From Helicobacteraceae bacterium (GTDB lineage: Bacteria; Campylobacterota; Campylobacteria; Campylobacterales; Sulfurimonadaceae): a stretch of DNA of 39,827 nt. The notes under the pieces are model-generated. The model did not search any database and was not told where the DNA came from. It worked only from the letters and a program-made list of their open reading frames with translations. The stretch is from assembly GCA_021163845.1 (NCBI GenBank), contig JAGGTH010000022.1, positions 1-39,827 of the forward strand. The letters run 5' to 3'. Of this stretch, positions 11,566 to 25,266 are shown piece by piece. Every line of letters starts with the position of its first letter. Position 1 is the stretch's first letter. A program made the position numbers and the translations under genes.

Positions 11566-11597
11566 GCGTCACACTGAACTTGATTCAGGGGCTAGGT
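11566..11597. repeat. Short interspersed palindromic repeat, copy 1
   Basis: Contains CGTCA followed by the perfect stem CTGAA (11574-11578) / TTCAG (11584-11588) around a CTTGA loop, then GGGGCTAG. It shares the CGTCA arm, the CTTGA loop and the CTAG end with two copies downstream of the RND gene at 16959-17036. Confidence 0.6.
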
Positions 11598-11642
11598 TTT
11601 GCAAGAAATTTATTTCTTTTACATATAAAAAAAAGGTTTACT

Positions 11643-12836
11643 ATGAAAACTATACTACTTTTGTGTCTCTTCTTCTCTTTTGATCTGCTTGCACAAAGCC
11701 TTTGGGAGATACTACAGAGTACACCACAAAATAATAAACTCAAGGCACTCCAATACCGTCAAGATGCACAAAGTGCACAAACACAAGCACAACTCTCTTA
11801 TGAGGCTCCTACGATCTCTTTGGATGTAGGATCTGCTCAAGAGAAAGCAGGAGAAGATGGGGTGGAGTATGCTCTTGCATTTTCTCAAGAGATACAAACC
11901 CCTTTTGCCTTAGAGGAAAAAAACAGTGCCCAGCGTGCGATGATACGCTCTTTGGCTCTCTCTACAGAGTATGAGAACAATAGCTTTGTCTTAGATCTCG
12001 CACTCTCTTATCATCTTGCATGTGTGGATAAAGAGAGTTTTGAGCTTTTGCACCTTCTCGTAACTGAACAAAAAAAAGCATTTGATAGGCTTCGTGTAGC
12101 CTATGAGCTTGGAGAGATCTCACGAAAAGATCTGCTCTTTCATCAAGTCGAATATCTCAAACTTCAAGAGCAAGAGAGGTATTTTCAGAGACTTTATGAG
12201 CGTTCACTCTTAGCGCTTCAATCACAGGTACAAAACTTAGAGATAGATACTCTCACTTGCAGTGATATGATCTTACCATCAGAGGAAAATCTCAAGATAG
12301 AGCCACAAAAACATGCAAAACTTCAAGCACTTGCGTATGAAAGAGATGCAGCAACTTCGTATTTTAAGCTCTCAGATAGTTTTGTTCAATCTCTTGGGTA
12401 TTCCTTGTCGTATGAAAAAGAGCTTGATAAAAAGCGCTATGGGGTGATGGTGAGCATTCCGCTTACATCCTTTACATCCAAACAAGAGCAGCTTCAAGCA
12501 CAGTATCTTCATACACAAAGTGCGCTTGAAGAGGAACTCAATAGTTTGAGCTATGAACTCGACCAAAATGCCAAGAGTCTGCGTGCAAGGCTACACTCAA
12601 ACTATGAAAGTTATACTACGTACCAAGAGCAGGTAATCCCTCTTTCCAAAGAACTTCAAGAACTCTCTTTGATTGCCTTGTTTGAAGGGGAAGGAAGTGT
12701 GCTAGAGTCTTTAGATGCGACGCGATCGTACTTAAGTAATACACTTGGGATGTTAGAGAAAAAACGAACATACTACCAAGAGCTTTTTGCTCTTTATAAA
12801 ATAACAGATAGACGATTAGGAGAAATAAATGAATAA
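11643..12836 (+). CDS. TolC-family outer membrane efflux protein (CzcC/CusC-like)
   Basis: The outer-membrane channel of a tripartite heavy-metal efflux pump. A signal peptide covers about residues 1-18 (ending LLAQ). The rest is the long-helix pattern of TolC proteins, with alternating Gln/Glu/Leu-rich coiled coils at about 40-200 and 270-390. At 397 residues it is in the CzcC range. The ATG at 11643 has AAAAGG six bases upstream; the longer frame from 11580 lies in the palindromic repeat and was rejected. Its last eight bases overlap the fusion-protein gene, which starts the coupled set C-B-A. Confidence 0.9.
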   Translation: MKTILLLCLFFSFDLLAQSLWEILQSTPQNNKLKALQYRQDAQSAQTQAQLSYEAPTISLDVGSAQEKAGEDGVEYALAFSQEIQTPFALEEKNSAQRAMIRSLALSTEYENNSFVLDLALSYHLACVDKESFELLHLLVTEQKKAFDRLRVAYELGEISRKDLLFHQVEYLKLQEQERYFQRLYERSLLALQSQVQNLEIDTLTCSDMILPSEENLKIEPQKHAKLQALAYERDAATSYFKLSDSFVQSLGYSLSYEKELDKKRYGVMVSIPLTSFTSKQEQLQAQYLHTQSALEEELNSLSYELDQNAKSLRARLHSNYESYTTYQEQVIPLSKELQELSLIALFEGEGSVLESLDATRSYLSNTLGMLEKKRTYYQELFALYKITDRRLGEINE

Positions 12837-13896
12837 GTTATCGATTTTTTTAGTACTTTGTGTGTCCTTTTTGGACGCGCGTTTGATAGAGATGAGTGAG
12901 ACGCAAGCGGGAGACTTGGGTGTACGAACACAAAAAGCAGTTCAGGTTGAGAAGATCATCTTGCCCTCTTTGAATGCAAAGGTTATCCTCGCACCCAAAG
13001 ATATCATTACTATCACTCCAAGAGTGATGGGGGTGATAGCAGATGTTTATGTCAAGAAGTTTGATAAGGTGGCACAAGGGGAGAAGATATTCTCTCTTCG
13101 CTCCAAAGAGCTTTTAGAACTCCAGCAAGAGTATCTCAGTCTCTCTTTGGAGCATCAAAATAAACAACAAAACTACCAAAGAGATGAAAAACTTTACGAG
13201 ACAGGGCTTATTGCACACAAGCGACTTTTGCTCACTCAACAAGAGATGATGCAGAGCAAACTCCTTTTTGAATCTGTGCAAAATAAGCTCTTAGAGAGTG
13301 GATTTAATAAAAAGATGCTTGAACAAATACAGCAGAGCCTCTCTCCTTTGCGTGAGATATCCTACTACGCATCAAGAGCAGGACAGATCTATGCGATCGA
13401 TGCTAATGTTGGAAAAAGTGTTGCTCATGATGCAAAAATAGTGACACTTTATGCCGATGGTGCGCGCTCTATAGAGTTTGAAGTACCACTTGGGATGTTA
13501 GAGTTTATCTCTTTGGGAGATATCTGCTCGTTTGAGGGCTATAAAGCAAAGATAGTCGCACTAAGTGATCTTGTAAATGAAGAGTCTCAATCACTAAGTG
13601 TACGTGCTTTGATAGAGAATCCTCAAGATATTCGTATTCATAGTGTTTATCAAGTTAGCCTTGAGACAAAAACACAAGGAAAGTTCTTTAGAGTGATGAA
13701 ATCTGCTCTTGTTTTTAGCGAGGGGGATGCTTATGTTTTCAAAAAGGTTTCTGATGGATTTGAAGCACTTAAAGTAGGACTTGTGAGTGAAGATGAAGCG
13801 CACTATACTATTGATGCAGAGCTTACGAGTACGGATGATGTGGCAGTGAGTTCTACTGTGGCACTCCTAAGTGCAATGGAGCAAGAAAATGAGTGA
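12829..13896 (+). CDS. Metal RND efflux periplasmic adaptor (CzcB/CusB-like)
   Basis: Membrane fusion protein linking the inner-membrane RND pump to the outer-membrane channel. The 355-residue sequence has a short signal peptide (about 1-17), a biotinyl-lipoyl-like half (PRVMGVIADVYVKKFDKVAQGE, about 65-86), a central helical hairpin (about 95-170) and the second lipoyl half (SRAGQIYAI). The beta-barrel and membrane-proximal domains follow. It is somewhat short for CzcB and lacks an N-terminal His-rich metal-binding extension. AGGAGA lies six bases before its ATG. It overlaps the upstream gene by eight bases and the RND gene by eight bases. Confidence 0.9.
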   Translation: MNKLSIFLVLCVSFLDARLIEMSETQAGDLGVRTQKAVQVEKIILPSLNAKVILAPKDIITITPRVMGVIADVYVKKFDKVAQGEKIFSLRSKELLELQQEYLSLSLEHQNKQQNYQRDEKLYETGLIAHKRLLLTQQEMMQSKLLFESVQNKLLESGFNKKMLEQIQQSLSPLREISYYASRAGQIYAIDANVGKSVAHDAKIVTLYADGARSIEFEVPLGMLEFISLGDICSFEGYKAKIVALSDLVNEESQSLSVRALIENPQDIRIHSVYQVSLETKTQGKFFRVMKSALVFSEGDAYVFKKVSDGFEALKVGLVSEDEAHYTIDAELTSTDDVAVSSTVALLSAMEQENE

Positions 13897-16800
13897 AAGA
13901 CTCGTAGCCTTTGCTTTATCGCAAAAGTTTTTTGTTCTTCTTTTGAGTGTGGCGATCCTCTTTTTTGGTGCCAACGCTATGATGAAACTCCCCGTCGATG
14001 CTTATCCTGATATCGCTCCGACGCAGGTAAAGATCATCCTCAAAGCCTCAGGGATGACACCCGAAGAGATGGAGTCACGGGTGACAATACCTGTGGAACA
14101 AAACCTTCAAAGTATCGCAGATCAACGTATTATTCGCTCCCTTTCAAAATATGGGATCTGTGATATCACTATTGATTTTAAAGAGGGTGTGGATATCTAT
14201 TGGGCAAGACAGCAGGTAGCACAGCGTCTGAGTGAGGTGATGGATCAATTACCTTCGGATGTAAGCGGTGGACTCGCACCTATTACCACCCCTTTAGGGG
14301 AGATCTTGATGTTTACGATCGAATCAGACACCCTTACACTGATGCAAAAGCGCTCTTTACTTGACTGGGTGATCAACAAACGCATCCGCTCGATTGATGG
14401 GGTGGCTGATACCAATGCACTGGGTGGCTATGTCAAAACCTATGAGGTGGTACCCAATTATCTCAAGATGCAGCAGTTTGGTATCACTCTCGAGCAGCTT
14501 CAAACCGTGCTAGAGAAAAATAACAAAAATGATGGAATAGGGCGACTCTCAGTAGGGGAGCAAAGCCTTTATGTGCGCTCAGAGGGGCGACTTAAAACGA
14601 TAGAAGATATTCAAAAGCTCATCATCAGACAAGAGAAAAATGGGCGAAGTATCTCTATCTCAGATCTCGCAGAGGTGCGTATAGGCTCTCTCACGCGCGC
14701 AGGCTTTGTGACAAAAGATGGTAAAGCTGAAACGGTGCAAGGGTTGATCCTCTCACGCAAAGGGGAGGATACATCTGCAGTACTCACAAGGGTCAAAGCA
14801 GAACTAGAAATGATTCAAAAAGATCTGCCAGAGGGTGTAAGTATAGAGATATTCTATGATCGCTCAGATCTCGTCTCTAAAGCTATCGCGACCGTTTCTA
14901 AGGCTTTGATAGAGGCTTTGGTGCTTATTATTATTATTCTATTTTTATTTTTGGGCAATTTTGCTTCAGCGATGAGTGTGGCTATTATCCTCCCTTTTGC
15001 AGCGATGCTCACCTTTATGGCGATGGGCTATTTTGGGATAAGTGCCAACCTTATGAGCCTTGGCGGGCTTGCCATTGCGATAGGGATACTCGTAGATAGT
15101 GCCGTGGTGATGGTAGAAAATATCAGCGAGCATCTTCAAAATGAGAAGTACAAGAGTGAACCAAAACTCTCCCTCGTGCTCAAAGCTGCCAAAGAGGTTT
15201 CAGGCTCTATCTTTACGGGGATACTTATTATTATCATCGTCTTTTTACCGCTTTTGACCTTAGAGGGCTTGGAGGGGAAACTCTTTGTGCCTGTGGCGCT
15301 GAGTATTGTTTTTGCGCTTGGTTCTTCGCTTCTTTTGGCACTCACTTTTATCCCTGTAGTGAGCTATTTTGTGCTGAAGCAAGAGAGCCATAAACCTCCA
15401 CGTCTCATTACGTTTTTAGAGGCAAGATATAAAACGGTTCTTGGCTATTCGCTCTCACATCAAAAACTTGTCTTTGGTGTGGCGCTTGTGCTCTGGGTGA
15501 TAGCTGTACTTGCTTATACGCAGGTGGGAAAAACTTTTATGCCAACACTCGATGAGGGGAATGTGATCATCGGGATAGAAAAAAATCCATCGATCTCCCT
15601 TGAAGCGAGCCGTGATATCGATCTTAAAATACAGCAAGCACTTTTGCGTGAGGTACCTGAGATACTCTCTATTGTCGCACGTGGAGGAAGTGATGAGATA
15701 GGGCTCGATCCGATGGGGCTCAATGACACAGATACCTTTTTGGTGCTCAAACCAAAAGAGCAGTGGCGCGTGCCATCGAATGAATGGCTCTTAGATCAGT
15801 TTCGCGCGGTGCTCGATGGTTTTGTGGGGATAGAGTATAGCTTCACCCAGCCCATCGCGATGCGTGTCTCAGAGATGCTCAGTGGTTCTCGTGGGGATAT
15901 CGTGGTGAATATCTATGGGGAAGATAACGGCAAACTCGAAGAGATATCCAAACAAGTCGCCGCAATAGCTTCGGATGTAGAGGGAGCTTCGGATGTATAC
16001 AAAAAAGCAAACGAGGGTGTGGCCTACTGGCAGGTGGAGTTTGATGATGAGGTGATGGCACGTTATGGTGTGAGTCGCGATGCGCTCTCTTATTATCTCA
16101 AAACTGCCATCGATGGGGTGCAAGTGGGGATCATCCAAGAGGACCTCAGACGTATCAACCTCATGATAAAGGGCAAAGAGTCCTTGCAAAAAAGTATGAG
16201 TCAAAATAGTGCCTTGCATTATATTTTAGATAACGGCAAGAGCATCCCAATAGAGGAGCTAGTAAGATTTTCTAAAACACTCGGACCTGTACAGGTCAAC
16301 CATGAAAATGGGATGCGAAAATCTTTGGTGCAGATGGATGTTGTGGGGCGAGATCTTGTTGGTTTTGTCGAGGAGTTGCAAGCCAAAATCGAGACGAGCA
16401 TCACTCTTGAAGAGGGCTATTTTGTAGAGTATGCAGGGGAGTATAAAAACCAACAAAGAGCCGCTGCACGCCTCTCTTTTATCGTTCCGCTGAGTATTGT
16501 GCTCGTATTTATTTTACTTTTGATGACCTTTGGCTCTTCGCTTCAAGCGCTTTTGGTGCTCTTAAACATCCCATTTGCTCTGATAGGTGGGATATTTGGG
16601 CTTTATTATACGGGGGAATATATGAGCGTGCCTGCTTCTGTGGGCTTTATCGCACTCATGGGGATTGCCGTGCTCAACGGCGTGGTGATGCTCAACTATT
16701 TTAATAATTTGCGCCACACCCTCCACGACCCACTAGAGATAGTCACCCAAGGAGCCTTGCGCCGCTTGCGCCCCGTGCTTATGACCGCCGTGATCGCCGC

Positions 16801-16969
16801 ACTCGGGCTCATCCCCATGCTCTTTGCCACAGGACCAGGCTCTGAGATCCAAAGACCTCTAGCAATAGTCGTGATAAACGGACTCGTAAGCTCCACCTTT
16901 TTAACCCTTGTGCTTTTGCCTCTTTTGTATCATAGGTTTGTGCTTAAAAAGGGGAGCCCGTCATCCTGA
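13889..16969 (+). CDS. Heavy-metal efflux RND permease (CzcA/CusA-like)
   Basis: Inner-membrane proton-driven pump of the HME-RND family. From the ATG at 13889 (GGAG eight bases upstream) it has 1026 residues, the usual size. A membrane helix at 12-31, the first porter region, helices from about 335, and the TM4 motif AIGILVDSAVVMVEN (about 396-410) are visible. The Asp in that motif is the proton-relay residue. The second half repeats the plan. The motif does not match the CusA or CzcA versions exactly, so the metal cannot be named. The final residues (GSPSS) are encoded by a palindromic repeat that begins at 16959 and supplies the stop. The 16741-16800 stretch is much richer in G+C than its surroundings. 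Confidence 0.93.
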   Translation: MSERLVAFALSQKFFVLLLSVAILFFGANAMMKLPVDAYPDIAPTQVKIILKASGMTPEEMESRVTIPVEQNLQSIADQRIIRSLSKYGICDITIDFKEGVDIYWARQQVAQRLSEVMDQLPSDVSGGLAPITTPLGEILMFTIESDTLTLMQKRSLLDWVINKRIRSIDGVADTNALGGYVKTYEVVPNYLKMQQFGITLEQLQTVLEKNNKNDGIGRLSVGEQSLYVRSEGRLKTIEDIQKLIIRQEKNGRSISISDLAEVRIGSLTRAGFVTKDGKAETVQGLILSRKGEDTSAVLTRVKAELEMIQKDLPEGVSIEIFYDRSDLVSKAIATVSKALIEALVLIIIILFLFLGNFASAMSVAIILPFAAMLTFMAMGYFGISANLMSLGGLAIAIGILVDSAVVMVENISEHLQNEKYKSEPKLSLVLKAAKEVSGSIFTGILIIIIVFLPLLTLEGLEGKLFVPVALSIVFALGSSLLLALTFIPVVSYFVLKQESHKPPRLITFLEARYKTVLGYSLSHQKLVFGVALVLWVIAVLAYTQVGKTFMPTLDEGNVIIGIEKNPSISLEASRDIDLKIQQALLREVPEILSIVARGGSDEIGLDPMGLNDTDTFLVLKPKEQWRVPSNEWLLDQFRAVLDGFVGIEYSFTQPIAMRVSEMLSGSRGDIVVNIYGEDNGKLEEISKQVAAIASDVEGASDVYKKANEGVAYWQVEFDDEVMARYGVSRDALSYYLKTAIDGVQVGIIQEDLRRINLMIKGKESLQKSMSQNSALHYILDNGKSIPIEELVRFSKTLGPVQVNHENGMRKSLVQMDVVGRDLVGFVEELQAKIETSITLEEGYFVEYAGEYKNQQRAAARLSFIVPLSIVLVFILLLMTFGSSLQALLVLLNIPFALIGGIFGLYYTGEYMSVPASVGFIALMGIAVLNGVVMLNYFNNLRHTLHDPLEIVTQGALRRLRPVLMTAVIAALGLIPMLFATGPGSEIQRPLAIVVINGLVSSTFLTLVLLPLLYHRFVLKKGSPSS

Positions 16970-17064: not shown

Positions 17065-17157
17065 CTTACCCATAGGTTTAGAGCTATGGGTAGAAAATAA
17101 TAAAATTTACCCATAGATCCAAATCTATGTAAAAAAACCACCTCAATTTACCCATAG
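17065..17157. repeat. Three TTACCCATAG direct repeats with hairpins
   Basis: TTACCCATAG recurs at 17066-17075, 17108-17117 and 17148-17157, a spacing of 42 and 40 bases. Copy 1 is the left arm of a 9-bp perfect stem (17067-17075 with 17084-17092). Copy 2 forms a 7-bp stem CATAGAT/ATCTATG (17112-17118 with 17123-17129) that can extend past a bulge. Copy 3 has no partner arm. No coding frame is apparent. It lies between the efflux and signalling operons; function is unknown. Confidence 0.6.
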
Positions 17158-17354
17158 CCCCAAACCTTTAAGCGTAAAAATTTAGGACACTTCCTAGACA
17201 CTTTTTTGATAGTATCCTCAGCGAAAAAATTATGAAATTGCTGTGGGCTATATTTAAAAAATCTTATAGATCTTGGGTACTACTCCTTTAAAATTATAGT
17301 AAGTTTTAAGACAGTCTTCTGCTACTATGGTTTTTATTAATTCAAAGGGAATAT

Positions 17355-20300
17355 ATGAACTCTAAAGAACTTATTGTTGTTGGGATTGGCTCTTCTGCGG
17401 GAGGGCTTGAAGCGCTCCAGATTGTGCTCGCCAAGATATCCAATGTAGAAAACTGTGCTTTTATTATCGCGCAGCATCTTAGCCCAACACACAAAAGTAT
17501 GATGACAGAGCTTCTCTCTCGCATCACTAAGATCCCAGTCATAGAGGTCAAAAATGGTATGAAGATCAAAAAACACACCATCTATATGACACCTGAAAAT
17601 AGTGATGTCTATGTCGCAGCTGGCAAAATATTTTTGACAAATATAGAACAAACCTATGGTCCAAAGCCCTCTATCAACTATCTTTTTAACTCTTTAGCCG
17701 AAGCTTTTGGTAGCAAAGCGATGGGAATCATCCTCTCAGGAACGGGGAGTGATGGGGCTTTTGGTATTCGCGCTATCAAGGCAAACGGCGGTATCACTAT
17801 CGCACAATCTCCTGCCACTGCCAAATATGATGGGATGCCCGTCTCGGCTATCAATACAGGCAAGGTAGATCTTGTCGTCTCGGTGGACAATATCAGTGAA
17901 GAGCTTCATCGCATCGTGCATAATCTCGAATCTGGGGTGGTAGAAAATATCAACGAGAGCATTACATCCCAAATGTATCAGATCATCTTTGATGAAAAAG
18001 GGGTAGACTTTTCTCAGTACAAGAAAAGCACCCTTGTACGTCGTATACAGAGGCGTTTAGCCACTCTCAAGATCGCTTCTTTGGCAGAATATGTCCAACA
18101 CCTACGCGAAAACAAAGAGGAGATCACCAATCTTTACAACGATATTTTGATAGGGGTCACTGAGTTTTTCCGTGACAAAGATGTCTTTGAAAAGGTGCAA
18201 GAGTATTTAGAGACCATTGTCGAGAAAAAAGAGCAGGGTGAAGAGATCCGTTTGTGGTGTATCGGATGTTCTACGGGGGAAGAAGCCTACTCTTTGGCGA
18301 TCCTTTTACACGAGATCTTACAAGAGAAGATCTCAAAATATAAGATCAAAATATTTGCAACTGATATCGATGATGAAGCACTCAAAATAGCGCGCGCAGG
18401 TATCTATGCAGAGACAAGCTTGGTCAATATAAAAAAAGAGTATCGTGAGCGTTACTTCACGATCGCAAAAAATCAGTTTGAGATCAAAAAGTCGATTCGT
18501 GAACTTGTTATCTTTTCAAAACATAATATTACAAGCGATTCACCCTTTTTGCGCATAGATTATCTGAGTTGCCGCAATATGCTGATCTATTTCAATCAAA
18601 ATCTTCAAGATAGGTTTTTCCCTATTGTCCATTATGCACTCAAAGAGAACGGCATCCTTACGCTAGGACTTTCAGAATCACTTGGAGGGCATCTTGAGCT
18701 TTTTATCCCTTTGGAGAAAAAACATAATATCTACAAAGCGCAATACACAGGGATCAAAGAGGCGCCAAAACTTTATAACTACAACGCTTCGTATCACAGT
18801 TTTGAAGATATCAAGCCACGCGTCAAAAAAAATGAGGAGGAGTTTTTAGAGGAGAGTATTGTGGAGGGTGTTTTGAATATGATGCTCAATCAGTGCGCAC
18901 TCATCAATAGCTCTCATGAGATCGTCTATATCAAAGGAAAGATTCCTTACATAGAGCAACCTCAAGGACGTGCTACAAATAATATCTTTAAATGTATTAA
19001 TCAAGATCTCTCCCTAGAGCTACGAACAGCACTCAATGAAGCTGTCAAAACAAAAACAATGCAAAGCACACCTGTGATAAGTATTGTTTTGCTTGATAGT
19101 ATAGAGAAATATCTCAAGATCGCCGTTGTGCCTATCAAAAATGAGAACAATGGCGAGTATCTTTATGCACTGTTCTTTCAGACCGAAAAGCTTGAACATA
19201 TTTATGGTTTTGTTTCTGAGGGTGCGAATGAAAATGAAACGATAGAGAAGCTCAAACTAGAGCTTACACGTACAAAAGCGCATCTTCAAAATGTGATCGA
19301 AGAGCTTGAGACGAGCTACGAAGAGATGCAAAGTCTCAATGAAGAACTCAGCTCATCCAATGAGGAGCTTCAAAGTTCTAACGAAGAGCTAGAAACCACA
19401 AACGAAGAGCTCCAAAGCACCAATGAGGAGCTTCAAACTGCTTATAGTGAGCTCAAGATCTTGTACGATGATAAAGAGGACAAAGCCAAAAAGCTCCAAG
19501 AGGTGACACAAAGTCTCCAAGCGGGGCAAGAGGCTATGAAGAAACAGCAAAAGCTTACCGATACTATCATTGAGTCGGTTCCTGTTGGTGTTATTATGCT
19601 CGATGGTGATGGACGACTCAGCGTGATGAATCAAAATGCAAAAGATATACTGCTTTTAGATGAAAAAGATGATGAAGAGCCACATTTTGGTTATGATGCA
19701 CAAGGGATCATAGAACAAAATCTTCCATTTGAGATTGTGAAAAAGACACATGAACCGATCTACAAAGTAGAACATACGATCGAAAAAGAAGGGCTTCAAG
19801 CTATTTTTATCACGGTCAATGGGGTTCCGTTGTTTAATCATCAAGGGGAGTTTATTGGAGCTGTTTTTAGTATTGTGGATAATCTGAGTACAGAGAATCT
19901 GAGTGCTAGTGTTAGATATGCAGGAGTTGATGAACAAAGTCTGTCCGAAGAAGAACAGTTTAGTATGGTCAAACTTGGGCTTCTTGATATCGCCTCGAAT
20001 CTTCAAAGCTATGTGAGTGATCTCTCCTTTTTTACACAAGCTCTTAGTCAGGGAAATGTAGCTTCGGATGTACAAATAAAACTTCAAGAGAATATCAACA
20101 AAAAAATCAATGAGATCACAACTATTATTGCGAGTAATGTCAACTACTATAAGGAACTTTTTGTGACAGAAAAAAGCTCTTTTTTCCCATTACTTAAGCG
20201 CTATATCAAGATTTTAAAGCAAACATTTGCAGAGGAACAACTCTTTTTTGAAGAGAGTCTTGGTAACAAGATCTTTTTAGAGTGTCGACCAAGAGAGACG

Positions 20301-20558
20301 AGCACTTTTCTGCTTGAACTCTTTAGTGGTATTTTTACTTTAGTGAAAAAAGAGATAGAGCAAAAAGAGGTCTTTATAGATATCTCGTATCAAAGCAAGC
20401 AAAACACTCTTGTGATATCTATCAAAGGGCTTGAACTTATACAAGAGAACCTTGATCGTTTCAGAGAATCCATGCCAAGCACACTCAAGAAAAGTGGTAT
20501 CAAAGGCTTGCATCATATATGCATACAAGATCTTTATGAGAAGAGTATATGCATCTAG
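17355..20558 (+). CDS. CheB-CheR fusion with coiled coil, PAS and degenerate kinase-like end
   Basis: A 1067-residue cytoplasmic signalling protein without membrane segments. Domain order: CheB methylesterase (about 5-185) with catalytic Ser14 (GSSAGG), His41 (AQH) and Asp133 (GTGSDGA) and no receiver domain. Then CheR methyltransferase (about 205-470) with the SAM-binding GCSTGEEAYSLA motif near 303-314. A spacer follows, then a coiled coil of repeating NEEL units (about 632-715), a PAS domain (about 735-848) and a C-terminal 200-residue part laid out like a histidine kinase. That part has no clear phospho-His box and no intact ATP-binding boxes. CheB-CheR-PAS fusions are known as hybrid methylation or signalling proteins outside classical chemotaxis. 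It heads a three-gene operon and overlaps the next gene by ten bases. No che genes or receptor lie nearby. Confidence 0.9.
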   Translation: MNSKELIVVGIGSSAGGLEALQIVLAKISNVENCAFIIAQHLSPTHKSMMTELLSRITKIPVIEVKNGMKIKKHTIYMTPENSDVYVAAGKIFLTNIEQTYGPKPSINYLFNSLAEAFGSKAMGIILSGTGSDGAFGIRAIKANGGITIAQSPATAKYDGMPVSAINTGKVDLVVSVDNISEELHRIVHNLESGVVENINESITSQMYQIIFDEKGVDFSQYKKSTLVRRIQRRLATLKIASLAEYVQHLRENKEEITNLYNDILIGVTEFFRDKDVFEKVQEYLETIVEKKEQGEEIRLWCIGCSTGEEAYSLAILLHEILQEKISKYKIKIFATDIDDEALKIARAGIYAETSLVNIKKEYRERYFTIAKNQFEIKKSIRELVIFSKHNITSDSPFLRIDYLSCRNMLIYFNQNLQDRFFPIVHYALKENGILTLGLSESLGGHLELFIPLEKKHNIYKAQYTGIKEAPKLYNYNASYHSFEDIKPRVKKNEEEFLEESIVEGVLNMMLNQCALINSSHEIVYIKGKIPYIEQPQGRATNNIFKCINQDLSLELRTALNEAVKTKTMQSTPVISIVLLDSIEKYLKIAVVPIKNENNGEYLYALFFQTEKLEHIYGFVSEGANENETIEKLKLELTRTKAHLQNVIEELETSYEEMQSLNEELSSSNEELQSSNEELETTNEELQSTNEELQTAYSELKILYDDKEDKAKKLQEVTQSLQAGQEAMKKQQKLTDTIIESVPVGVIMLDGDGRLSVMNQNAKDILLLDEKDDEEPHFGYDAQGIIEQNLPFEIVKKTHEPIYKVEHTIEKEGLQAIFITVNGVPLFNHQGEFIGAVFSIVDNLSTENLSASVRYAGVDEQSLSEEEQFSMVKLGLLDIASNLQSYVSDLSFFTQALSQGNVASDVQIKLQENINKKINEITTIIASNVNYYKELFVTEKSSFFPLLKRYIKILKQTFAEEQLFFEESLGNKIFLECRPRETSTFLLELFSGIFTLVKKEIEQKEVFIDISYQSKQNTLVISIKGLELIQENLDRFRESMPSTLKKSGIKGLHHICIQDLYEKSICI

Positions 20559-22954
20559 ATAAGATACTTTTACTGACCGATAAAGAGGAATTGATCTTTT
20601 CCTATGAGCTTCTACTTCAGCCCTATGGAGCTTTGGATGTAGAGCTTCTTTGTTCAAATAAGAAGATGGATACGATACTTTTTGAGGGGTATCAGATCAT
20701 TATTGTAGATTTGCAAGCAAAACAATATGTGCAAGAGTTTTTAGAGATCGCCAACTTTTATTCTTTTACGAGAGAACTCTTGGTATTGATCTCTTTTTTT
20801 GATAGTTCAGAGCTTCAAAAACTGAGTGTCTCTTTAAAAAATATAAGTTTTATTATCAAAAAACCTTTTATTACATCTAAGCTCACACAGTTCTTGGATA
20901 AAGAGATCTATAAAATGAAGCAGATAAGCCTCATCTCTAATAAGGCTGATATTCTTATAGATATTATCGACTTACACCCCTCTCGCATCGCTGTGTATGA
21001 TAGTGAGGGCTTTTTCTTTTATGCGAATTTGAACTATATTAATGCCTACAGTATCCTTGTACAACCCGATCAAGCAATCCATTTTGATACGATCAGTCCT
21101 TGTGAATATTCCTTTCATGCGATCAAGTCCAAACTTTTTGTCCTCAAAACATTTTCTCTTCAAGAGCAAGAACAAAACTCTTGGCAAGAGAGTCTCTTTT
21201 TTTATACCAATAGTAAATATATTATTCATGTCTCATCAGATATTACCTCCAAAAAACAAAAAGAGCTACGCTTAGAGCTTGCATCCAACTTTTTTGAAAA
21301 TACCAATGAAGGTATTATCGTAGCAAATAAACATGGTTACATAGAGTCTGTAAATAAAGCTTTTAGTGCTATTACGGGTTATTCTAAGGACGAAGCGATA
21401 GGACAAAATCCACGTATATTAAAATCAGGGTTGCACGATGTAAGGTTTTATGAAACGATGTGGAATGGGATCAAAGCAAATGGATACTGGAAGGGGGAGG
21501 TGTGGAATAAACGCAAGAATGGAGAGGTCTACCCACAAATACTCTCTATCTCTAAAACCACGAGTACCATCCATCAAGAGGAGTACTATATGTCTATATT
21601 TACAGACATCAGTTCACTTAAAGAGGCAGATAAAAAGATCTACTACCATGCAAATTATGATTCTCTGACGACACTTCCAAATCGTGCTTATTTTGAAAAA
21701 CAGCTTGAAAATATACTCCAAGACGCAGAGCAAAGTAAGACGCAGGTCGCAGTTTTTTTTATTGATGTAGATAAATTTAAAGATGTCAATGATAGTTATG
21801 GACACAATGTTGGGGATGCGATGCTTGTCTCTATCGCAAAAAGACTGCTCAATTCTACGCGAGAAAACGATTTTGTGGCACGTATTGGTGGCGATGAATT
21901 TGTCTTGATAGCAAAAGATATAAAGAATCACAAAAATGTAGAAAATCTTGCCAAAAAGATGCAAAAAAAAGTGAAACAAAGCTTGGAGGTAGAGGGACAG
22001 ATCTTTAGCATGAGTCTCTCTGTCGGGGTGGCGATCTACCCAGAGCATGGCAAAGAGAGTCAAGAACTCCTTAAAAATGCAGATATAGCCATGTATGAGG
22101 TAAAAGAAAATGGACGCGCTGATTTTCAAATATATGCAGGATATATGAGTAAAAAGATTATGACAAAGACCTCGATGCTCCTTGAGATTAAACGGGCACT
22201 TCTGAAAAAAGAGTTCGTGATGCACTACCAACCAATCATTGATTTTACAAATAACTGCGTAAGTGGTGTAGAAGCTTTGGTTCGCTGGAACCATCCAGAA
22301 AAAGGGATTATCCCACCAGATGCTTTTTTACACTATATTCTCTCATCAGAGTTAGAGCGAGAGTTTGGAGATTTAGTCATAGAGAGGGTTTTCCAAGATA
22401 TTCAGCGATTTAACCAAGTGTTTCCTGATACAAATCTTAGTATCTCTATCAATATATCAAGGGAGCACTTCTTTACCCCTAGCTTTTGTGCAGATATTGC
22501 CGTAATGATGAAAAAATATGCTGTTGAACCTTCTCAGATAGAATTGGAGCTTTTAGAGGTGCAAATCATGCATAATACGGAGCTTGCAAAACAAAATATT
22601 GATAATTTGCGTCTTATGGGATTTAAGATCTCTATTGATGATTTTGGTGTGGAATATTCTAGTCTGAATTATTTGAAACGATTTAATGTGGACAAACTCA
22701 AAATTGATAGATCTTTTATTCAAAATATAAGCGAAGATCCACACGATATCAAAATCGTACAATCCATTATCAACATAGGAAAACTTTTTGACTTAAAGAT
22801 CCAAGCTGAGGGTATAGAGACCTTACAACAATACAATATACTTAAACTTAATGGATGTGATTTTTCGCAAGGTTTTTACCATTCTAAGGCTATAGGTTTT
22901 GAAGAGTTTATTGGGTACTATAAGGTAAATAAGAAGAAAGCTAACAATGGATAA
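20549..22954 (+). CDS. Receiver-like/PAS/PAS/GGDEF/EAL cyclic-di-GMP protein
   Basis: An 801-residue soluble protein. The first 120 residues look like a receiver: Asp11, phospho-acceptor candidate Asp54 (IIIVDL), Ser82 and Lys105 (KKPF) are kept, but the second acidic-pair residue is Lys12. Two PAS domains follow (about 125-235 and 245-365). The GGDEF motif is exact at 447-451 with an I-site RxxD at 438-441, five residues before. The EAL domain has EALVRW (575-580), DDFG (697-700) and later EGIE and QGF motifs, so both cyclase and phosphodiesterase sites look intact. Which activity prevails cannot be told. It overlaps the gene before by ten bases and the gene after by eight. Confidence 0.93.
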   Translation: MHLDKILLLTDKEELIFSYELLLQPYGALDVELLCSNKKMDTILFEGYQIIIVDLQAKQYVQEFLEIANFYSFTRELLVLISFFDSSELQKLSVSLKNISFIIKKPFITSKLTQFLDKEIYKMKQISLISNKADILIDIIDLHPSRIAVYDSEGFFFYANLNYINAYSILVQPDQAIHFDTISPCEYSFHAIKSKLFVLKTFSLQEQEQNSWQESLFFYTNSKYIIHVSSDITSKKQKELRLELASNFFENTNEGIIVANKHGYIESVNKAFSAITGYSKDEAIGQNPRILKSGLHDVRFYETMWNGIKANGYWKGEVWNKRKNGEVYPQILSISKTTSTIHQEEYYMSIFTDISSLKEADKKIYYHANYDSLTTLPNRAYFEKQLENILQDAEQSKTQVAVFFIDVDKFKDVNDSYGHNVGDAMLVSIAKRLLNSTRENDFVARIGGDEFVLIAKDIKNHKNVENLAKKMQKKVKQSLEVEGQIFSMSLSVGVAIYPEHGKESQELLKNADIAMYEVKENGRADFQIYAGYMSKKIMTKTSMLLEIKRALLKKEFVMHYQPIIDFTNNCVSGVEALVRWNHPEKGIIPPDAFLHYILSSELEREFGDLVIERVFQDIQRFNQVFPDTNLSISINISREHFFTPSFCADIAVMMKKYAVEPSQIELELLEVQIMHNTELAKQNIDNLRLMGFKISIDDFGVEYSSLNYLKRFNVDKLKIDRSFIQNISEDPHDIKIVQSIINIGKLFDLKIQAEGIETLQQYNILKLNGCDFSQGFYHSKAIGFEEFIGYYKVNKKKANNG

Positions 22955-23666
22955 GAATAAAGTGACATATATTGCAGAAAATTTCTATTGGGATGGAGAT
23001 CTCAAAAAACTTTTTATTGAAAATCAAGAGGTAGAGCTCTCTGTTTCTCAAAAAAGATTGATTACTTATATGCTTAAAAATGCAAATAAAGCACTACAGA
23101 ATGTCGATATTTTTTATGAAGTTTATAATTCCATGGATAGGGAATTTAATGAAAAAAGTGTTCGAAATCTGATAAGTGCTTTACGAAAACTTATTCCTAG
23201 CATTAATATAAAAAATGATTATGGTGGCTATTACACACTTGTCACTTACACACAAGAGAATAAAGAATTTAAAAAATACCTTTTTGAGATTTTAGAACAG
23301 TCTAAGAATGCGATCGCGCTAACAGATCCAAATCAATTCGATAACCCGATCATTTACGTCAATCAGGCTTTTTTAGACCTTTTTGGATATAGCTCAGAAG
23401 AGCTTTTAGGTAATAATATACGTTTGCTCAATAATGGTGATACAACTCAAGAGGGTCTAACACAACTCAAAAAGGCGATACGAGCTGAGGAGTTCATAGA
23501 GGTCAATATTCGAGAGTATTCGAAAAAAGGGGACTTGATCTACGATGAGATTACCATTAGTCCCATTCTTGACACACAAAGAGAAAAACTTGTCTATTTC
23601 TTGAGTGTGCACAAAGATATCACCGCGACACAAGAGCTTTTACAAAAACTTCAAGAGATCTTATAA
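22947..23666 (+). CDS. Winged-helix DNA-binding protein with C-terminal LOV-like PAS
   Basis: A 239-residue predicted transcription factor. Residues 1-105 look like an OmpR/PhoB-type winged helix (SVSQKRLITYMLKNAN, then NEKSVRNLISALRKLIP and a GGYY wing) but without a receiver. Residues 110-235 are a PAS domain that follows the LOV pattern closely: DNPIIYVNQAFLDLFGYS, then ITISPI and a closing VHKDIT. The photoactive Cys of the NCRFLQ motif is Ile158 here (GNNIRLL). The positions that usually hold flavin-contacting Asn, Asn and Gln appear as Glu, Asp and His. Blue-light photochemistry is therefore not expected; redox or ligand sensing is possible. It is the last gene of the signalling operon and overlaps its neighbour by eight bases. 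Confidence 0.85.
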   Translation: MDKNKVTYIAENFYWDGDLKKLFIENQEVELSVSQKRLITYMLKNANKALQNVDIFYEVYNSMDREFNEKSVRNLISALRKLIPSINIKNDYGGYYTLVTYTQENKEFKKYLFEILEQSKNAIALTDPNQFDNPIIYVNQAFLDLFGYSSEELLGNNIRLLNNGDTTQEGLTQLKKAIRAEEFIEVNIREYSKKGDLIYDEITISPILDTQREKLVYFLSVHKDITATQELLQKLQEIL

Positions 23667-23704: not shown

Positions 23705-23911
23705 ATGAAAATACAAACACAATACACATACGAAAAATCGTGGGCAGATACACAAGAGGCTGATTTGCTTCGTATTATCGAAGAAGAGGTAGGCGATGCA
23801 GATCCAAAAGGGACACTCTCTTATATAAAAGAGGCGATCAAAGGGGGCAAAACGATCACTGTTGGCTCGTGTCGATTTAGATTCAAACCTGAGGAAGAGC
23901 AATGTTCATAA
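23705..23911 (+). CDS. Small conserved-looking protein of unknown function
   Basis: A 68-residue soluble protein that I do not recognise. It begins with a beta-like stretch, then an acidic amphipathic helix (EADLLRIIEEEVGDAD), a helix with YIKEAIKGGK, and a short strand (TITVGSCRFRFK). It has no signal peptide or membrane segment. The ATG at 23705 lacks a ribosome binding site but has a -10-like box seven bases upstream. The last ten bases overlap the doxX start (frame +1), which argues that the frame is translated. Its partner is probably the DoxX protein, though nothing shows how. Confidence 0.6.
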   Translation: MKIQTQYTYEKSWADTQEADLLRIIEEEVGDADPKGTLSYIKEAIKGGKTITVGSCRFRFKPEEEQCS

Positions 23912-24291
23912 GTCCAGATATAGCGAAATTACTTTTACGCTTAAGTGTTGGTATTTTGATGCTTTTTCATGGGATCCATAAGATCATCCATGGAGTTGGA
24001 GGGATCAAGAAAATGCTTGCAAGCTCAGGTATGCCCGAGTTTTTAGCGTACGGTGTGTACGTTGGTGAGGTGATCGTTCCACTCTTTATCATCCTTGGAC
24101 TTTATGCAAGAATTGCATCACTTGTTCTTGCTTTTAATATGCTTGTAGCGATCCTTTTAGCGTATGGCGGTTCTCTTTTTGCTCTTGGTAAACATGGTGG
24201 CTTAGCCATTGAGCTTCCTCTTTTTTATTTTATACTCTCTCTAGTGATTTTTTTACTAGGAAGCGGAAGGTATTCTGTTAATAATAAGTAA
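23902..24291 (+). CDS. DoxX family membrane protein
   Basis: A 129-residue integral membrane protein with four predicted helices (about 8-26, 48-66, 69-89, 100-121). The DoxX family signature is visible in LLLRLSVGILMLFHGIHKI near the start and GEVIVPLFIILGL in the second helix. DoxX proteins are associated with quinone, thiosulfate or oxidative-stress-related membrane complexes; a specific role cannot be assigned. It overlaps the small gene before it by ten bases, with GAGGAAGAG as a ribosome binding site inside that gene. Confidence 0.88.
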   Translation: MFISPDIAKLLLRLSVGILMLFHGIHKIIHGVGGIKKMLASSGMPEFLAYGVYVGEVIVPLFIILGLYARIASLVLAFNMLVAILLAYGGSLFALGKHGGLAIELPLFYFILSLVIFLLGSGRYSVNNK

Positions 24292-24381: not shown

Positions 24382-25266
24382 ATGAAAGATGAATCGGTTG
24401 TATTGATCGTGGATGATGTTGCTTCTAATGTTGAGGTTTTGGCGAATATTCTCAAAGATGAGTATCAGATCAAGATAGCTCAAAGTGGTGAAAAAGCGAT
24501 CGAACTTGCACTTAGAGCACCATTACCTGATATTATTTTACTCGATATTGAGATGCCAAGTATGGATGGTTTTGAGGTGCTCAAAGCTCTTCGGGGCAAT
24601 AGTGTAACCAAGGACATCCCTGTGATCTTTGTAACGAGTCATGATGCAACAGCACAAGAGGAAAAAGGCTTACAAGAAGGTGCTGTAGATTATATTACAA
24701 AGCCGATCCGCCCTATTATTGTGAAGGCAAGAATTAAAACGCACCTTATCATCAAAGAACAAAGAGACGAGCTTGTTTATGCTGCTTCTCACGATCAATT
24801 GACAGGTTTGTATAATCGTCACCATCTCAACGAAGAGGGTGGAAGAAAGTTTTCACGTGCTCTGCGTTATCAAGATAGACTCAGTGTGATTATGCTCGAT
24901 ATCGACCACTTTAAAAAGATCAACGATACCTACGGACATCTAGTTGGAGACAATGTACTCAGAGAAGTTTCTGTATTATTTAACACACATAAAAGAAACG
25001 AAGATTTTGCTTCACGATTTGGGGGAGAGGAGTTTGTGATTCTCTTAGACAATTGTGCGCTTGAAGATGCTGTGTATAAAGCAGAGATTATCCGCAAGAG
25101 CATCGAATCTCTAATGCCTGAAAATATTTTAGTGACAGCGAGTTTTGGTGTTGCGGAGCTAAGCTACGCGCATTCAAATTTTGAAGAGCTCCTCAAAGAT
25201 GCTGATACAGCACTCTATGAAGCAAAAGAGAGTGGTCGAAACAAAGTGGTTGCGTTTTACGAATAG
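24382..25266 (+). CDS. Response regulator with diguanylate cyclase domain (PleD-like)
   Basis: A 294-residue protein with a receiver domain (acidic pair Asp11-Asp12, phospho-acceptor Asp55, Thr85, Lys107) followed by a GGDEF-family cyclase. The active-site loop is GGEEF at 214-218, an accepted variant, with an I-site RxxD at 205-208. It should make cyclic-di-GMP on phosphorylation and be product-inhibited. AAAGG lies six bases before the ATG. No kinase is adjacent, so its partner is unknown. It converges on pssA with eight bases between stops. This is the second GGDEF protein within 5 kb; the other, at 20549-22954, is larger and also has EAL. Confidence 0.95.
   Translation: MKDESVVLIVDDVASNVEVLANILKDEYQIKIAQSGEKAIELALRAPLPDIILLDIEMPSMDGFEVLKALRGNSVTKDIPVIFVTSHDATAQEEKGLQEGAVDYITKPIRPIIVKARIKTHLIIKEQRDELVYAASHDQLTGLYNRHHLNEEGGRKFSRALRYQDRLSVIMLDIDHFKKINDTYGHLVGDNVLREVSVLFNTHKRNEDFASRFGGEEFVILLDNCALEDAVYKAEIIRKSIESLMPENILVTASFGVAELSYAHSNFEELLKDADTALYEAKESGRNKVVAFYE

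Follow-up and report, generated by a model that had tools for sequence, protein, structure and literature searches.

A CheB-CheR and cyclic-di-GMP operon of probable photosensory descent, with a probably light-blind winged helix-LOV regulator, in a member of the Sulfurimonadaceae

We analyzed a stretch of 39,827 nucleotides from a Helicobacteraceae bacterium of the family Sulfurimonadaceae (contig JAGGTH010000022.1 of assembly GCA_021163845.1; hereafter the window), which contains a module of three overlapping genes encoding a CheB-CheR fusion protein (CheBR; gene 1), a GGDEF-EAL enzyme of cyclic-di-GMP turnover (gene 2), and a protein that joins an OmpR/PhoB-type winged helix to a LOV-type PAS domain (gene 3). 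We consider it probable that these genes form a self-regulated operon of photosensory descent that is now light-blind. According to this explanation, the winged-helix regulator would bind a tandem GACACTT site in the -35 region upstream of gene 1 and set the transcription of its own operon, with an effect of either sign. CheB and CheR demethylate and methylate chemoreceptors in known systems; judged from the domain families, the outputs of the operon would be the action of CheB and CheR on chemoreceptors and that of the GGDEF-EAL enzyme on cyclic-di-GMP. In relatives, the LOV pocket is complete, CheBR is linked to a histidine kinase, and the cyclic-di-GMP enzyme carries a true receiver; we therefore propose that expression of their operons is under blue-light control, with phosphotransfer from kinase to receiver. 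All three elements are decayed in the window copy (pocket, kinase motifs, and receiver), which suggests that another cue might act through the remaining PAS domains, or that the operon might be constitutive.

Recurrence of the gene set and of a tandem upstream site

All three reading frames are intact and full-length on the forward strand, and the overlaps of 8 to 10 bases between them that the earlier note on this DNA had reported are indeed present (Table 1). Overlaps of this size are frequent in bacteria and are little proof by themselves; an 8-base overlap of the CheBR and receiver-GGDEF genes recurs in most loci of the sister genus. Of 200 genomes of the family, 33 have a match to gene 3, mostly full-length, and matches also occur in two further families of the same order. 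For the conservation count, we examined the surroundings of gene 3 matches at 33 loci outside the window. The winged helix-LOV gene was adjacent to both a CheBR gene and a gene for a GGDEF(-EAL) protein in 16 of these, while two further loci retain winged helix-LOV and CheBR up to a contig end, and ten loci had winged helix-LOV and GGDEF(-EAL) without CheBR. The winged helix gene comes first in 13 of the three-gene loci, and three (L046, L053, and L054) have the order seen in the window. The refuting result named in the earlier note, a gene order kept in no relative, was thus not obtained. We rejected a fixed gene order, given the two orders among relatives, as well as a chance overlap of unrelated genes, given the recurrence of the set. 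Recurrence despite rearrangement points to a functional link, and is a better argument for one than a fixed order. Six orthologs of the window GGDEF-EAL protein from the same genus (G064, G093, G164, G146, G081, and G073) have a winged helix-LOV gene as neighbor, and the one in G091 adjoins a gene for a B12 protein. The association is kept across genera and families, which supports the proposal of the earlier note that CheB-CheR, cyclic-di-GMP, and DNA binding are joined in one regulatory unit. Its further statement that no such pathway has been described agrees with the literature that we searched, the coverage of which was incomplete; no paper on a winged helix joined with LOV was found there, most subscription journals being outside coverage. 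A scan of a contig collection gave one distant cyanobacterial PAS relative as its sole match.

A conserved tandem DNA site upstream of gene 1, which the earlier note had overlooked, was not matched in any of 100 shuffles. The arrangement GACACTT-N4-GACACTT-N6-(-10) precedes nearly all of the relatives' modules. In 1.3 Mb of DNA examined, all sites with at most one mismatch precede module genes, bar one that precedes a gene for a methyl-accepting chemotaxis protein (MCP); this gene (L125:1-1543, with 4HB_MCP and MCPsignal domains) lies next to winged helix-LOV, bears a separate copy of the tandem operator, and is a possible second member of the regulon. With a matrix built without the sites of the window or of a group of relatives that we call clade A, the window site scored 25.5, and sites at non-module genes scored at most 13.6, the MCP gene of L125 aside. 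Among CheBR loci without winged helix-LOV, the site is absent in four of five. PhoP targets have the same geometry, consisting of 7-bp direct repeats with a 4-bp spacer (PMC4832192). We paired the winged helix-LOV protein with the tandem site because the site co-occurs with the modules and shares this geometry, and the co-occurrence makes a strong case for predicted binding. No other convincing intergenic operator was found in 1.41 Mb of stretches of the same genome plus the window (about 65% of the genome), and the seven next-best sites inspected there all lay within reading frames or at their margins. A wide regulon was rejected on this basis, and autoregulation is likely to be the main task of the winged-helix protein. 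Upstream of the operator, positions 17066-17170 hold three imperfect copies of a (TT)TACCCATAG element; an exact match to TTTACCCATAG occurs just four times genome-wide, twice within these positions, and the repeats were set aside as a candidate operator.

Intact and lost motifs in the three proteins

Pfam identifies Trans_reg_C (an OmpR/PhoB-type winged helix) and PAS in gene 3, and winged-helix secondary structure is present in the structural model. The AlphaFold model matches LOV structures with Z up to 17.6, the best solved relatives of the gene 3 profile are LOV photoreceptors, and the best NCBIfam match of the PAS domain is the YtvA blue-light family. While the LOV scaffold shares about 46-62% identity with relatives, only four of ten hallmark residues (YtvA numbering) are kept in the pocket, with the replacements Cys62 to Ile, Phe64 to Leu, Gln66 to Asn, Asn94 to Glu, Asn104 to Asp, and Gln123 to His; these include all four flavin-contact residues (Q66, N94, N104, and Q123). 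The motif of the adduct-forming cysteine reads GNNIRLLN, as against GxNCRFLQ in relatives with a complete pocket. All ten hallmark residues are present in L049, L050, L052, L055, L058, L062, L065, and L067, and nine in others; in clade A, Gln66, Asn104, and Gln123 are lost and the cysteine is kept. In YF1, NmPAL, and AsLOV2, light responses were lost when the active-site Gln was exchanged for His (PMC9098866). Moreover, by the published criterion, natural Cys-less LOV domains retain nearly all other conserved LOV residues (PMC4682037), whereas five of the nine other hallmarks are lost in the window copy, which places it outside that group. Of the DNA-binding LOV-like protein described in the earlier note, the winged-helix match and the LOV fold therefore stand; by sequence, given the Ile at position 62, the His at position 123, and the four of ten hallmark residues kept, it is not a working LOV domain and is probably light-blind. 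Winged helix-LOV proteins in which Cys62 is replaced by Pro or Ser and most other pocket residues are kept are encoded at L057:8552-9340, L064:5081-5788, and L048:9230-9958, and are good candidates for Cys-less LOV chemistry; the genes of L057 and L048 adjoin phytochrome genes.

In gene 1, CheB, CheR_N, CheR, and PAS are found by Pfam, and alignments with 1chd, 5ftw, and 1bc5 indicate that the catalytic triad and the S-adenosylmethionine-binding motif, at residues which we take to be those of catalysis in CheB and CheR, are kept. The C-terminus of the CheBR protein of the sister genus is a histidine kinase: relative L049 has HisKA and HATPase domains there, and the H, N, and G boxes are intact. 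At the same position, the window protein has no Pfam match to HisKA or HATPase and lacks the three boxes; as to a kinase-like fold, the structural model of this region was too poor for use, and the label "pseudokinase" would be a purely positional one. In L119, which has the CheBR protein closest to that of the window, CheBR and the receiver show the same decay, and the output domains are intact.

Gene 2, in which Pfam finds PAS, GGDEF, and EAL, is by its intact motifs a predicted GGDEF-EAL enzyme of cyclic-di-GMP turnover; its best NCBIfam matches are DibA/PdeR-like and all below the cut-off. At its N-terminus, Asp54 and Lys105 align with those of receivers, the acidic pair is broken, and the profile similarity to receivers is weak, while the cyclic-di-GMP protein of the sister genus has an intact N-terminal receiver. 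The earlier note was thus right about the CheB-CheR fusion of gene 1 and about the enzyme class of gene 2, and missed the histidine kinase and the receiver that relatives carry on these two proteins; together, these suggest a kinase-receiver pair within the module of relatives. Elsewhere, the product of L154:1480-3951 (G087) is a PAS-GGDEF-EAL protein whose N-terminal domain is LOV-like, with Leu in place of Cys (GKNLRFLN) and the equivalent of Gln123 kept.

Light-related genes at the module, and neighboring genes

Phytochromes are rare in the family, being found in 9 of 200 genomes. Yet each of the five family genomes with both kinds of gene has a phytochrome gene within about 8 kb of the winged helix-LOV gene; a rough estimate, which ignores shared ancestry, puts the probability of such proximity by chance at 1e-10. 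Heme oxygenase genes lie between the two in four loci, and in L125, from another family, a phytochrome-GGDEF gene directly precedes the winged helix-LOV gene. In L119, the third slot of the CheBR/GGDEF-EAL operon (L119:13020-14120) holds a gene for a protein with B12-binding domains and Wx9EH and ExH motifs, the best Protein Data Bank (PDB) match of which is 8j2x, a photocobilin (PMC10979010). Three further relatives were found in 228 family genomes. Its extra domain may be an N-terminal photoglobin in permuted order, for which there is only a hint. In other words, three presumed kinds of photoreceptor (LOV, phytochrome, and B12 protein) occur at the module, and a photosensory origin, a point absent from the earlier note, is the best-supported inference. 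Neither a phytochrome nor a BLUF protein was found in the genome of the window itself, and these were rejected as another light input there; the MCP genes of this genome number about 20. In L058, L062, and L065, an Aer-like PAS gene and an MCP gene are oriented divergently from the solo winged helix-LOV gene, which may be a further link to chemotaxis; these loci are closely related, so that this neighborhood counts as one event.

Table 1. Positions of the module genes, their domains, and the upstream site in the window
Feature	Position	Strand	Length	Remark
Tandem direct repeat GACACTT-N4-GACACTT, probable operator	17186..17203	+		exact match
-10-like hexamer TAGTAT, six bases after second repeat	17210..17215	+		spacing as in relatives
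Gene 1: CheB-CheR-coiled coil-PAS protein, degenerate C-terminus	17355..20558	+	1067 aa	
CheB methylesterase domain	17379..17906	+		Pfam; Ser-His-Asp triad aligned with 1chd
CheR methyltransferase, N-terminal and S-adenosylmethionine-binding domains	17982..18719	+		Pfam; alignment
PAS domain of CheBR protein	19560..19880	+		Pfam
C-terminal region, histidine kinase position in relatives	19887..20555	+		without H, N, and G boxes
Gene 1/gene 2 overlap	20549..20558	+	10 bases	
Gene 2: receiver-like-PAS-GGDEF-EAL protein	20549..22954	+	801 aa	
Degenerate receiver-like domain (intact receiver in relatives)	20549..20923	+		no Pfam match in window
GGDEF domain	21650..22117	+		GGDEF motif and RxxD inhibitory-site motif
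EAL domain	22184..22888	+		EAL, DDFG, and other catalytic motifs
Gene 2/gene 3 overlap	22947..22954	+	8 bases	
Gene 3: winged helix-LOV-type protein	22947..23666	+	239 aa	
OmpR/PhoB-type winged-helix domain	22947..23261	+		recognition-helix region well conserved in family
LOV-type PAS domain	23280..23636	+		flavin-pocket residues lost

About 390 bp separate the module from the end of an RND efflux operon that precedes it (11580-16969, forward strand; AcrB-family pump at 13871-16969). Downstream follow a 68-aa open frame with no Pfam match (23706-23912, forward strand), a DoxX gene (23902-24291), and, about 700 bp from the module, a PleD/DgcR-like receiver-GGDEF gene (24382-25266, forward strand), which shows no sign of module membership in relatives.

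Competing explanations, known systems, and meaning

The window protein might still be a Cys-less LOV protein that binds flavin and signals light or redox state by photoreduction or chemical reduction. LOV domains without the cysteine can signal via flavin photoreduction, natural Cys-less LOV-like proteins exist (PMC4682037), and the scaffold is well kept; the replacement of five of the nine other hallmarks (Phe64, Gln66, Asn94, Asn104, and Gln123) and the effect of His at position 123 in three model proteins (PMC9098866) nevertheless make this improbable. It is possible, though not what we would expect, that the LOV-type domain has instead taken on a new role, recognizing a different small molecule or a protein partner as a PAS domain, in an active regulator whose present function needs no light history. 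The protein is full-length with a conserved scaffold and recognition-helix region, the operator is exact, and the losses in clade A suggest that the pocket change is lineage-wide, and not the random decay of one gene. However, this proposal comes with no candidate ligand, and pocket-specific conservation is not demonstrable without a close relative of the window copy. That the operon is decaying towards a pseudogene without present function we regard as very unlikely: three distinct parts for input or relay have degenerated, but the genes are full-length, the CheB, CheR, GGDEF, and EAL motifs are kept, the operator is exact, and L119 combines the same decay with intact output domains. Still less would we expect an incidental co-location of numerous, mobile signaling genes for three proteins with separate tasks. 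CheBR and GGDEF-EAL proteins are indeed common and found in other contexts, and solo winged helix-LOV genes exist (L058, L062, L064, and L065), but adjacency is repeated in two orders, overlaps are conserved, and a shared operator precedes whichever gene leads.

Several points weigh against the explanation we favor, that of a self-regulated operon of photosensory descent that is now light-blind. The Trans_reg_C match is marginal (26.8 bits, with a cut-off of 26.2), the similarity of the window CheBR C-terminus to the kinase of relatives is not significant, and Gln123 is absent in several relatives too, so that some members of the family may rely on a different chemistry. Furthermore, L126, a sister-type module with CheBR and without winged helix-LOV, keeps the tandem site; it is their co-occurrence that ties the protein to the site, and the operator scan took in about two thirds of the genome. 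The gene association, the operator-like site, and the state of the motifs are seen directly in the sequence, whereas DNA binding, light sensing in relatives and its loss in the window copy, and the outputs are deduced from it.

Among known systems, EL222 of Erythrobacter litoralis, which is among the PDB matches of gene 3, is likewise a one-component regulator combining LOV with a helix-turn-helix (HTH) domain. In the window protein, by contrast, an OmpR/PhoB winged helix stands N-terminal to LOV, the probable operator is a tandem 7+4+7 site, the operon also encodes CheBR and a cyclic-di-GMP enzyme, and the photoactive cysteine is absent. LOV-HTH proteins as such are already known; a survey in 2014 counted only eight bacterial HTH-LOV proteins (PMC4844311). 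The Trans_reg_C winged helix is shared with PhoB and PhoP, and the upstream site has the repeat geometry reported for PhoP (PMC4832192), but gene 3 has no receiver domain, and its sensor is a C-terminal LOV-type PAS. Gene 1 resembles CheB-CheR-PAS hybrid histidine kinases in its CheB, CheR, and PAS domains, and relatives end in HisKA and HATPase, whereas no kinase motifs survive in the window copy. Gene 2 has the domain order of the DibA/PdeR-like PAS-GGDEF-EAL proteins, and differs from them in its N-terminal receiver-like domain and operon context. The third gene of L119 resembles photocobilin and CarH-type B12 photoreceptors in its B12-binding domains, motifs, and match to 8j2x; such a protein is absent from the window, and the extra domain in L119 is N-terminal rather than C-terminal.

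For the family as a whole, we see about even chances that the OmpR/PhoB-type winged helix-LOV proteins are an undescribed class of photoreceptor that regulates itself through the tandem GACACTT operator and, with a CheBR kinase and a receiver-GGDEF-EAL protein, couples light to chemoreceptor adaptation and cyclic-di-GMP. The sensor slot would hold a LOV, phytochrome, or B12 photoreceptor, and some lineages would have become light-blind with their outputs kept. If true, light sensing, the enzymes of chemotaxis adaptation, cyclic-di-GMP, and direct control of transcription would be joined in one small operon, and the new LOV-DNA-binding architecture, with its well-defined operator, would be useful for optogenetics. 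The window copy would then be a natural photosensory module that has lost its sensor and kept its wiring.

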